Origin: Iodidimonas sp. SYSU 1G8
GTDB lineage: Bacteria > Pseudomonadota > Alphaproteobacteria > SMXS01
Length of the DNA stretch: 64,000 bases
Direction: 5' to 3'
NCBI RefSeq assembly: GCF_039655775.1
Contig: NZ_JBBYXJ010000001.1
Span: forward strand, 2,193,501 to 2,257,500
Position numbers and translations under genes: made by a program. The notes under the pieces are model-generated. The model was given only the letters and a program-made list of their open reading frames with translations. It searched no databases and had not been told where the DNA came from. Of the stretch, positions 26,910-30,049 are shown piece after piece (position 1 is the stretch's first letter; each line of letters begins with the position of its first letter).

Positions 26910-27317
26910 ATGATCGTCGCCGAAATCGTCATCTCCCTGCTGCTGGTCATCGGCGGCCTGTTCGCGCTGGTCGGCTCCTACGGCCTGATCAAGCTGCCCG
27001 ACCTGATGAGCCGTCTGCACGCGCCCACCAAGGCGACCACGGTCGGCGTCGGCAGCTGCCTGCTGGCCTCCATCGGCTATTTCATGCTGACCGAACAGCG
27101 CGTGTCGGTGCACGAGCTGATCATCACCCTGTTCCTGTTCCTGACCGCGCCGATCACGGCGAGCATGGTCGCCAAGACGTTCCTGCACCGCAATGACCGG
27201 GTGAAGGGCGACCTGCCGCCCACCAACGGCGAGACGGGATGGGCGACCTACGATCCCGCGCCCGGCCTGAAAGACGCGGACGCGGGCGCCAGGAAGCCCA
27301 GGGACGCGTCGGTCTAG
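26910..27317 (+). CDS. mrpG: Na+/H+ antiporter subunit G
   Basis: A 135-residue MnhG/PhaG subunit: LFALVGSYGLIKLPDLMSRLHAPTKATTVGVG is diagnostic, followed by a third helix (LIITLFLFLTAPITASMVA) and a hydrophilic tail. Last gene of the operon; its TAG overlaps the htpG stop on the opposite strand by two bases. Confidence 0.94.
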   Translation: MIVAEIVISLLLVIGGLFALVGSYGLIKLPDLMSRLHAPTKATTVGVGSCLLASIGYFMLTEQRVSVHELIITLFLFLTAPITASMVAKTFLHRNDRVKGDLPPTNGETGWATYDPAPGLKDADAGARKPRDASV

Positions 27318-29197
27318 GCGAGGCCCTTGGCCATCAGGTCGGCGAGGCGGCGGGCGAACGCCGCCGGATCGGCCGGCAGCTCGCCTTCCAGAATCCGCGC
27401 CTGATCCAGCAGCAGCAGCGCCGGATCGCCGAGCGCGTCCAGCGCGCCGGGCTGGTCGGCCCGCTCCGCCAGCGCCGCGATCAGCGGATGGCCCGGATTG
27501 ATCTCCAGGATACGCTGCGCCTCGAACCCCAGCTGGTTGTGCTGCTTCAACAGGCGCTGCAGGTTGAGGTCCATGTCGCCATCGTCGGCCACCAGGCAGA
27601 CGGCGCTGCCGGTCAGGCGGTCGGTGGTGCGCACGTCCTTCACCTGATCGCCCAGCGCGTGCTTGAGCGCCGCGATCAGCGTGACCATGCGCGCGTCGTC
27701 GGCTGGCTTCTCCGCGCTCTCGTCCTTGCCGTCCAGCTTCGACAGGTCGGCGCCGCCGCGCGTCACCGAGCGGAACGCCTTGCCCTCGTGCTCGGGCACC
27801 ATGGACAGCCAGAAATCGTCGACCGGATCGGTCAGCAGCAGCACCTCGACCCCGCGCGAGGTGAAGCCCTCCAGATGCGGGCTGCGCCGCGCCGCGTCGA
27901 TGTCCGGTGCCGAGACGTAATAGATCGCGTCCTGGCCCTCCTTCATGCGGGCGAGGTAATCGCCCAGCGTGGTCCAGCCGTCGCCATGGGTCGACCGGAA
28001 GCGGGCGATCTTCAGCAGCGCCCCGCGCCGCTCGCCATCCTCGTAGATGCCTTCCTTGATGACCGGGCCGAAGCTGGACCAGATCTTGTCGAACCCGTCC
28101 GCATCATCCTTCGCCTTGGCCTCGAGCGCCGAGACGACGCGGCCGGTTACCGCCTTGCGCATGCGCGCGACCACCGGGTTGTTCTGCAGCATCTCTCGGC
28201 TGACGTTGAGCGGCAGGTCTTCCGAATCGACCACGCCGCGCAGGAAGCGCAGATAGCCGGGGATCAGGTCGTCCGTGTCGTCGGTGATGAAGACCCGCTT
28301 CACATAGAGCTTCACGCGCGGCTTGCGCGCCGGGTCGAACAGGTCGAGCGGGCGCTCCTCCGGCACGAACAGCAGCGCCGTGTACTCGATCGCGCCTTCG
28401 GCCCGGTAATGCAGCGTCAGCGCCGGCGCATCGAAGGCGTGGCCCGCATGGCGATAGAACGCGGTGTACTGCTCGTCGGTGACCTCGGCCTTGGGCCGGG
28501 TCCACAGCGCCGAGCCCTTGTTGACCGATTCCTCCTCGGTCACCGCGCCGTCCTTCACCTCTGACAGGTGAATCGGGAAGGCGATGTGGTCGGAATAGGT
28601 GGTGACGATGTGGCGCAGGCGGTGGACATCGAGATATTCCGACTCGTCCTCGCGCACGTGCAGCACGATGGTCGTGCCGCGCCCGTCCCGCGCCGCCGGC
28701 TCGATGGTGTAGCTGCCCTGGCCGTCGGAGGTCCATTTCCACGCCTGCGCGTCACCCGCCTTGCGGCTGGTGACCTCGACCTTGTCCGCCACCATGAAGG
28801 CCGCGTAGAAGCCGACGCCGAACTGGCCGATCAGCGAGACGTCCTTCTTCGAATCGCCGCTGAGCTTTTCCATGAACGCCGCCGTGCCCGACCGGGCGAT
28901 GGTGCCCAGATTGGCGATCAGATCGTCCCGGTTCATGCCGATGCCATTGTCGGCGATGGTCAGCGTCCGCGCGGCCGCATCGGCGGTGATGGCGATCCGG
29001 AACGCCGAATCGCCTTCGGTCAGCGACGGATCGGTCAACGCGTCATAGCGCAGCCGATCGCACGCGTCGGACGCGTTGGAGATCAGCTCGCGCAGGAAAA
29101 TCTCGGTCTCGGAATAGACCGAGCGCACCATCATGTTGAGGAGGCGCGCGACTTCGGCCTGGAATTCGTGCTTTTCAACGGTCTCGGTGGTGGACAT
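27314..29197 (-). CDS. htpG: Molecular chaperone HtpG (Hsp90)
   Basis: ATP-dependent Hsp90 chaperone, 627 residues. The GHKL ATPase domain shows FLRELISNASDACDRLRY (Glu/Asn for ATP and Mg2+), IADNGIGMNRDDL, GQFGVGFYAAFMVADKVEV and GTTIVLHV; the middle domain has YVKRVFITDDTDDLIPGYLRFLRGVVDSEDLPLN with the conserved catalytic-loop arginine region. GGGAG lies before the ATG. A heat-shock-type promoter is visible just upstream (29228-29256). Convergent with mrpG. Confidence 0.97.
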   Translation of the reverse strand: MSTTETVEKHEFQAEVARLLNMMVRSVYSETEIFLRELISNASDACDRLRYDALTDPSLTEGDSAFRIAITADAAARTLTIADNGIGMNRDDLIANLGTIARSGTAAFMEKLSGDSKKDVSLIGQFGVGFYAAFMVADKVEVTSRKAGDAQAWKWTSDGQGSYTIEPAARDGRGTTIVLHVREDESEYLDVHRLRHIVTTYSDHIAFPIHLSEVKDGAVTEEESVNKGSALWTRPKAEVTDEQYTAFYRHAGHAFDAPALTLHYRAEGAIEYTALLFVPEERPLDLFDPARKPRVKLYVKRVFITDDTDDLIPGYLRFLRGVVDSEDLPLNVSREMLQNNPVVARMRKAVTGRVVSALEAKAKDDADGFDKIWSSFGPVIKEGIYEDGERRGALLKIARFRSTHGDGWTTLGDYLARMKEGQDAIYYVSAPDIDAARRSPHLEGFTSRGVEVLLLTDPVDDFWLSMVPEHEGKAFRSVTRGGADLSKLDGKDESAEKPADDARMVTLIAALKHALGDQVKDVRTTDRLTGSAVCLVADDGDMDLNLQRLLKQHNQLGFEAQRILEINPGHPLIAALAERADQPGALDALGDPALLLLDQARILEGELPADPAAFARRLADLMAKGLA

Positions 29198-29256: not shown

Positions 29257-29300
29257 ACGTCAATTGATCGGGAGGGGGAAAGCAGGGCCTGAAAAGAGAA

Positions 29301-29427
29301 ATGCCCGGCCGTCAGAGATGAAATGGGCTTGGGGGCTACAGATCCATCTCGAGACGACCGGGCGACGAGGCCAACAACGGTCATTCTACCCTGAAATGTG
29401 GCGGGATTTAGACTCGCCCGGGGCAAG
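29301..29427 (+). ncRNA. Structured RNA-like element, copy 1 of 2 (class unknown)
   Basis: A hairpin is formed by GCCCGG (29303-29308) with CCGGGC (29358-29363), GTC with GAC, and GAGATG (29315-29320) with CATCTC (29345-29350). It presents a G-rich loop at 29321-29344. Then come GACGAGGCCAACAAC (29364-29378), an 18-base variable spacer, and TGTGGCGGGATTT (29397-29409) leading into a weaker stem (GGCGGG/CTCGCC). Six T residues follow at 29442-29447. The same blocks with different but complementary stems recur in copy 2. The strand is inferred from the conserved 3' block and T-run; the opposite reading is possible. No family recognised. Confidence 0.6.
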
Positions 29428-29493
29428 GTTGAGACAGTGCGTTTTTTCTGGAAGGCGCGGCCGGACGGGAAACGACGTGCTCCGGACATGAAG

Positions 29494-29618
29494 ATGCCCG
29501 GTCGCTTCAGACGGAATGGGCTTGGGGGCTACAGATCCGACTGATGCGACCGGGCGACGAGGCCAACAACCAGATAGTCGCTCCGGATTGTGGCGCGATT
29601 TGGCCCGACCGCGGGCAA
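29494..29618 (+). ncRNA. Structured RNA-like element, copy 2 of 2 (class unknown)
   Basis: Same architecture as copy 1, about 193 bases downstream. A perfect 10-bp stem GCCCGGTCGC (29496-29505) / GCGACCGGGC (29546-29555) encloses TCAG-A-CGGA (29507-29515) / TCCG-A-CTGA (29536-29544). The loop at 29516-29535 is identical to the core of the copy 1 loop. GACGAGGCCAACAAC follows at 29556-29570, then 18 variable bases and TGTGGCGCGATTT (29589-29601), and a small GCCCG/CGGGC hairpin (29603-29616). The inner stems differ from copy 1 by paired changes, which argues for a selected RNA fold. It may be a small RNA or a leader of the DUF2794 gene 90 bases on. Confidence 0.62.
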
Positions 29619-29707
29619 ACCGGAGGTCTTTTCGTCGCTTTTCCGAGACGGCCGCCCGGGTAAAAACCCGTGGACAACCGGCGTGTCACGGCAGTTTAAT
29701 AATTGTC

Positions 29708-30049
29708 ATGCAGAACGTTACATCGATCGCGGATTACCGCGCGCCGCCGCCCACCGTGTTCTTCCACCGGCGGGAGCTGGACCAGATTCTGCGCGTCTAC
29801 GGACGCATGGTCGCCGAAGGCGAATGGCGCGATTACGCCATGAACGACGGCGCCGAACAGGCCGTCTTCGCGGTCTTCCGCCGCACCAGCGAAATGCCGC
29901 TGTACCGCATCGTCAAATGTCCGAAATGGGCCAAGCGCCAAGGCGCCTATGCGATCCTCGCGCCCGGCGACCAGATCCTCAAGCGCGGCCATGAGTTGGA
30001 GACCGTGCTGCGCTTCTTCGACCGGAAGAAGCTCAACGTCGTCGACTGA
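29708..30049 (+). CDS. DUF2794 family protein
   Basis: A 113-residue protein starting MQNVTSIADYRAPPPTVFFH and containing DYAMNDGAEQAVFAVFRRTSEMPLYRIVK, the pattern of the alphaproteobacterial DUF2794 family, whose function is not known. No membrane segment or catalytic motif is evident. The ATG at 29708 is the family start; longer in-frame readings upstream would run into the structured RNA element. A strong inverted repeat follows the stop. Confidence 0.9.
   Translation: MQNVTSIADYRAPPPTVFFHRRELDQILRVYGRMVAEGEWRDYAMNDGAEQAVFAVFRRTSEMPLYRIVKCPKWAKRQGAYAILAPGDQILKRGHELETVLRFFDRKKLNVVD

Follow-up and report, generated by a model that had tools for sequence, protein, structure and literature searches.

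We identified two tandem candidate small RNA (sRNA) genes on the minus strand of a 64,000-nucleotide stretch of the Iodidimonas sp. SYSU 1G8 genome (hereafter the window, to which positions refer unless a contig or locus is named), lying between htpG and a gene encoding a DUF2794 protein. Taken as a whole, the reading that we consider fairly probable is that these are trans-acting sRNAs homologous to BjrC174 (Rfam family RF02355), each with its own promoter block, which would pair with target RNAs through a C-rich loop and be activated by ChvI. Their identity as BjrC174 homologues and their minus-strand orientation are, judged from sequence comparison, very likely. The elements, their parts and the flanking genes are as follows:

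29293..29375, minus strand: sRNA copy 1, from the 5' G of GTTGG at 29375 to the end of the T-rich tract (predicted extent)
29303..29363, minus strand: copy 1 hairpin with C-rich loop (loop core 29325-29337; folded with the loop held open)
29364..29375, minus strand: copy 1 conserved 5' tail, GTTGGCCTCGTC, invariant in the 26 nearest A4 rows
29383..29388, minus strand: copy 1 putative -10-like hexamer TAGAAT, read from the sequence
29400..29424, minus strand: copy 1 upstream block GCC-N8-GTC-N8-GCC, a degenerate putative response-regulator site
29486..29567, minus strand: sRNA copy 2 (predicted extent)
29496..29555, minus strand: copy 2 hairpin (loop core 29518-29530; folded with the loop held open)
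29556..29567, minus strand: copy 2 conserved 5' tail, GTTGGCCTCGTC, invariant in the 26 nearest A4 rows
29574..29579, minus strand: copy 2 putative -10-like hexamer GACTAT (A4 columns 41-46)
29592..29616, minus strand: copy 2 upstream block, outer GCCs 22 apart and middle repeat degenerate (GGC)
27314..29197, minus strand: htpG (HSP90), downstream neighbour
29708..30049, plus strand: DUF2794 gene (PF10984; 127.5 bits), divergent neighbour, often conserved with the sRNA

Read 5' to 3' on the minus strand, each element consists of the upstream block, the -10-like hexamer, a gap of 6-7 nt, the GTTGG... sequence, the hairpin and the T-rich tract, and both copies share the near-fixed C-rich loop AGCCCCCAAGCCC and the fixed 5' tail. 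A first-pass annotation of this DNA had described two copies spaced by about 193 bases with a shared loop, the sequence GACGAGGCCAACAAC, an 18-base spacer, a TGTGGCG-GATTT block and compensating stem changes, and all of these are present in the sequence. Its extent needs correction: the block rightwards of about 29383 (copy 1) or 29574 (copy 2) looks like promoter and not RNA.

The view that the tandem pair consists of structured small RNAs under selection, their stems covarying around a fixed loop, is borne out by comparison between genomes. A covariance model built from 26 copies (R1) finds homologues among the relatives, and the aligned homologues retain the complementary pairs. In a 36-sequence alignment (A3), the outer 9-bp stem is paired in 99.4% of 323 cells (23-48% in controls slid by 1-3 columns), and none of 500 shuffles attains any of the five measures used. 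Double changes occur in 9/9 outer-stem pairs (28 cells), although the rows of A3 are related, so that these counts are not independent events. Throughout the alignments of relatives, the stem letters change together, and the loop and the adjoining strip are invariant. Two duplicate rows were dropped, and both a mosaic copy (L004) and a copy with a loop one base shorter (L019) were excluded from alignments A2, A3 and A4.

Regarding family membership, the elements had been described as matching no known family; a relative does exist in RF02355, found by Rfam covariance scan, and what stands of the earlier statement is that the score falls below the Rfam cut-off in this genome. Scanning the whole window at the gathering threshold gave no Rfam match for either element. 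The sole RF02355 match in the window is with copy 2 on the minus strand, covering model positions 89-150 of 201 (20.5 bits, E 0.16; cut-off 45), which alone is not significant. Homology is instead demonstrated through intermediates on the same strand, using R2, a minus-orientation covariance model trained without the RF02355-positive genus, which matches copy 1 at 29295-29427 (minus; 110.8 bits) and copy 2 at 29488-29619 (minus; 128.3 bits). In that genus, presumably Bradyrhizobium, RF02355 scores above its cut-off in 11/11 genomes examined with one match each, and the R2 match in G366 (C1:1128153-1128283, minus) falls inside a full-length RF02355 match (1128119-1128312, minus; 175.5 bits). 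L150, from another family, passes RF02355 at its R2 locus on the same strand (54.5 bits), and in family f42 5/7 genomes have RF02355 matches below cut-off (33.5-36.8 bits), with R1 scoring 15.8-27.5 bits at the same loci. By sequence, then, the window copies are homologues of RF02355 and not formal members of it.

Across the class, R2 matches 34/385 genomes and R1 8/385, and RF02355 matches 1/289 genomes of a class sample at E<=0.001. In a phylum sample, 16/299 genomes have R2 matches, namely our own genome and 15 labelled as the same class, the class label being mostly not given for the 283 genomes without a match. The loop varies across the class, yet it remains C-rich. One genome of family f42 (G050) has two R2 matches about 1.7 kb apart (C11:36043 and 37749), a possible independent duplication. 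We treated as chance three additional R2 matches within the window (8.8-11.9 bits), an R1 match in G136 (26.2 bits) and other low-scoring Rfam matches (miRNA etc.). The window's only gathering-level RNA match is an ffh sRNA (RF01793; 734-787, minus; 44.6 bits).

An excerpt of PMC4842269 describes BjrC174 as an abundant Bradyrhizobium sRNA with an active promoter and without mapped RpoD/RpoN promoter motifs. The window copies resemble it in strand, in a locus beside a divergent DUF2794 gene, in a hairpin with a C-rich loop (AGCCCCCAGCCCCCC in BjrC174) and in a GUUGG-type sequence before the hairpin. They differ in that RF02355 is longer, and in copy number, with one RF02355 match per genome (11/11) as against 2-5 copies per genome in seven genomes of the window's genus, drafts included. 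The RF02355 model ends in a second hairpin with UUUU, while the window match spans model positions 89-150 of 201.

The shared DUF2794 locus is likewise supported by comparison. DUF2794 lies within the fetched flank in 17/27 loci (the other 10 have no DUF2794 nearby), and it is divergent from the RNA in 17/17, as in the window, as well as in 4/4 further loci; in the RF02355-positive genus, the divergent gene directly adjoins the RNA in 5/5 loci examined. This adjacency is a feature found here and does not form part of Rfam's definition of RF02355. The neighbouring genes observed were DUF2794, htpG and Bax1-I; on the far side of the RNA, the neighbour is htpG in this order and in L130 and L150, and an ABC-transporter ATPase gene in several other families. 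Four R2 matches (L134, L136, L138 and L140) have no DUF2794, HtpG, YbhL or ABC gene nearby, and correspond either to moved genes or to false positives. In the open-access papers searched, DUF2794 appears in one paper, as a gene listed in a MucR table with no mention of sRNA, BjrC174 is named in one paper, a text search for RF02355 returned no match, and we found no report joining this sRNA to DUF2794, ChvI or multi-copy loci.

R1 identified five genomic copies, of which two are those in the window and three are dispersed (C2:1557705, C2:1521751 and C1:168850), in other intergenic regions with other neighbours. An interpretation of the element as an htpG or DUF2794 leader was rejected, given these other neighbours. 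BLAST with the window pair gave matches in 8/21 genomes, our own included, from two genera; at least one copy is present in 10/10 genomes of the order, again including our own, and copy numbers in the seven genomes of the genus, which include incomplete drafts, are 5, 5, 2, 4, 5, 2 and 5. The dispersed copies are mostly syntenic between species (6/6 beside a DbpA-type helicase gene, 5/5 beside a DUF2189 gene and 1/2 beside a Rieske oxygenase gene) and cluster by syntenic place in a small tree with modest support, and so they look like old paralogues rather than recent repeats. Within the main genus of the order, almost all copies have an identical loop, while their stems drift. In a draft relative (G004), the mosaic copy L004:1506-1637 joins a copy-1-type stem half to a copy-2-type half and has a broken inner stem, reflecting either recombination between tandem copies or assembly collapse. 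L014 and L020 have two copies of the locus about 2.7 and 2.0 kb apart (193 bases in the window). The genome encodes 55 TonB-receptor plug domains, and two dispersed copies (L080 and L081) have such genes within several kb.

The TGTGGCG-GATTT block that the first-pass annotation had included in the RNA is indeed present in both copies, but it is more likely to be promoter, as part of an array GCC-N8-GCC-N8-GCC seen in the homologues. In A4, an alignment of 60 homologue matches, GCC occupies columns 4-6 in 50/60 rows, columns 15-17 in 35/60 and columns 26-28 in 53/60. Pairs of GCCs 11 apart are present in 35/60 rows (5.5% of window 46-mers), and triples in 27/60 (0.14% of window 46-mers); the model that found the A4 rows itself contains the upstream block, so the conservation is partly due to this selection, the spacing peak being specific nonetheless. 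Pairs at distance 11 were found in 27/34 distant and 8/26 nearest rows (shuffled means 0.8 and 0.6), as against 0-5 of the 34 distant rows at any other distance between 5 and 19. In each window copy the outer GCCs survive, the middle one being lost, and a strict GCC-N8-GCC is present in neither. In the putative -10-like hexamer, 90% of the 60 rows have A at column 42 and 81% have T at column 46. Neither an EcfG-type promoter (GGAAC-N15-18-(C)GTT) nor a TTGAC-type promoter was found in any of the 60 rows, and in other families the -10 could be read as an RpoH type (CCCCATATT-like), as noticed by eye.

An 11-bp direct repeat placed just upstream of the -10, replacing the -35, is the layout of PhoB/OmpR-type activation. 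According to an excerpt of PMC9731502, the Sinorhizobium meliloti ChvI consensus, as cited there, is N-GCC-N8-GCC, and the Caulobacter ChvI motif differs (TTGC-N3-GCAA). The spacing of the GCC array is thus that reported for Sinorhizobium ChvI, which led us to propose ChvI as the activator. CenR, whose site is TGA-N8-TGA in the portion of PMC9275681 available to us, was set aside as regulator, since the repeats here are GCC. The predicted activator of transcription is a response regulator of the PhoB/OmpR type, with ChvI as the likeliest candidate, bound to GCC repeats 11 bp apart just upstream of the -10. We give ChvI control an even chance in the wider family and consider it somewhat improbable in this genome. 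A known case for comparison is ChvR of Caulobacter, described in an excerpt of PMC6237742 as a ChvI-activated sRNA of 84 nt; its length is similar to the one predicted here, and ChvI control, demonstrated for ChvR, is a prediction for our elements. Compared by description only, ChvR also differs in adjoining recF and in being reported as specific to C. crescentus.

Alternatively, the conserved block from the GCC repeats to the -10-like hexamer could itself be transcribed, with the 5' end further upstream. In favor of this, the hairpin of the 201-nt RF02355 model is preceded by about 88 nt, and the match of L144 to that model runs its full length. No conserved pairing is predicted in the block, however, and an 11-bp period, the distance seen in 27/34 distant rows, suits binding sites on the DNA helix, so that we regard a transcribed block as rather unlikely.

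Under the promoter reading, the transcript would be about 82 nt long, comprising a 5' GUUGG... sequence, the hairpin, which may serve also as terminator, and a U-rich tract. The C-rich loop would act as the seed: by pairing with G-rich mRNA stretches, it would alter the translation or decay of these mRNAs. We propose such pairing because GsrN, the general-stress sRNA of Caulobacter, is the nearest studied case: according to an excerpt of PMC5869019, its pairing with G-rich RNAs is believed to depend on the six Cs in its loop. By this analogy, a base-pairing mechanism seems somewhat more probable than its alternatives taken together. The two are likened by description only, as alphaproteobacterial RNAs with an exposed C-rich loop; GsrN homologues typically lie near the ecfG/phyR locus and have an EcfG promoter; the elements described here have a DUF2794 neighbour, and an EcfG-type motif occurs in 0/60 rows. 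The 'cuckoo'/CcsR sRNAs are also multi-copy with C-rich hairpin loops, and they are set apart, again by description only, by a CCUCC loop in place of the CCCCC-AAG-CCC found here.

A search for targets of the loop among TonB-receptor starts (30 of 55 receptors, with guessed starts) revealed no enrichment, 126/300 shuffled loops being as good. For the 5' tail against the same starts, the figure was 26/300, and with coding controls at 10/300 this is not specific. The genome has nine perfect 10-base complements to the loop; five are the sRNA copies themselves, and none of the other four lies, by eye, at a convincing start. The lack of target enrichment sits well with a model in which the identical loop and 5' tail of the RNA bind and titrate a protein, the copies raising the dose, as do the near-constancy of the loop against drifting stems in the order's main genus and the retention of copies at syntenic places. 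Against titration, the C-rich loop of GsrN is tied to G-rich target RNAs (excerpt of PMC5869019), and the class-wide variation of a loop that stays C-rich is what pairing with G-runs would allow. We therefore consider titration improbable, somewhat more so than a transcribed upstream block.

The first-pass annotation had placed the RNA on the plus strand with a G-rich loop; the evidence favors instead the minus strand with a C-rich loop, through an asymmetry of G.U pairs, a T-rich tract, the strand of RF02355 and -10-like hexamers read on the minus strand. When the loop is held open, the minus strand folds better in 31 of 36 rows and the plus strand in four (L007, L012, L015 and L016), with one tie; L004 was excluded from this comparison and L019 failed the loop pattern, leaving 36 rows, and the distant rows included some flank, so that a few of their pairs fall outside the hairpin. 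L007, L012 and L015 are close orthologues in which, as in L016, the plus fold is better even with the loop held open. Under the same constraint, the energies for minus and plus are -33.8 vs -25.3 kcal/mol in copy 1 and -35.9 vs -32.3 kcal/mol in copy 2, and the 36 rows contain 69 G.U pairs on the minus strand as against 19 on the plus. One column pair of A3 cycles on the minus strand through U.G (17), C-G (12), U-A (6) and G.U (1), and its commonest state on the plus strand is a C.A mismatch. In addition, RF02355 and the minus-strand model match the same loci on the same strand.

The 12 nt that follow the minus-strand hairpin are 46% T (0.462) in the 26 nearest copies, against 20% (0.197) in the background of the same loci, and 0/10000 resamples are as high. 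The tract is weaker in the other 34 rows (0.250 vs 0.203; 245/10000 resamples), where 'nearest' means the genus plus G007, so that g3 loci of the same family (L038 and L039) are counted among the 34. Such T-rich DNA after a hairpin, in an element with several copies, might suggest a mere conserved terminator or repeat without RNA function, a reading made very improbable by the fixed loop and 5' tail, the conserved upstream block, the orthology of the copies, which are not recent repeats, and the excerpted description of the homologue BjrC174 as an abundant sRNA (PMC4842269). Least credible of all is a plus-strand structured RNA or DUF2794 5' leader with a G-rich loop, for which speak the position upstream of DUF2794 in many families, the plus-strand folds (copy 2 better than 200/200 shuffles, z -3.52; copy 1 than 192/200, z -1.89) and the tie between strands when the loop is unconstrained (minus better in 14/28), a tie we attribute to the ability of the G-rich loop to make G.U pairs with itself, and against which stand the G.U asymmetry, the T tract, the RF02355 strand and the location of 3/5 genome copies away from the single DUF2794 copy found in the genome.

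Returning to the minus-strand sRNAs, the family itself was already known from Bradyrhizobium, and its breadth, the strand-consistent extension, the amplification and the promoter array seem to be new. An sRNA that Rfam describes for Bradyrhizobiaceae belongs to an old family, present in many alphaproteobacterial families and often divergent from DUF2794. It is possible, though on balance we doubt it, that this DUF2794-linked BjrC174 family is a class-wide envelope-stress sRNA, a conserved output of ChvG-ChvI and a counterpart of the MicF type, here with five copies in a genome rich in TonB receptors. A near-fixed, seed-like loop, together with a conserved upstream array matching one published ChvI consensus, offers a testable regulator and locus in model species, and a genus with up to five copies may serve as a natural experiment in dose and specialisation.
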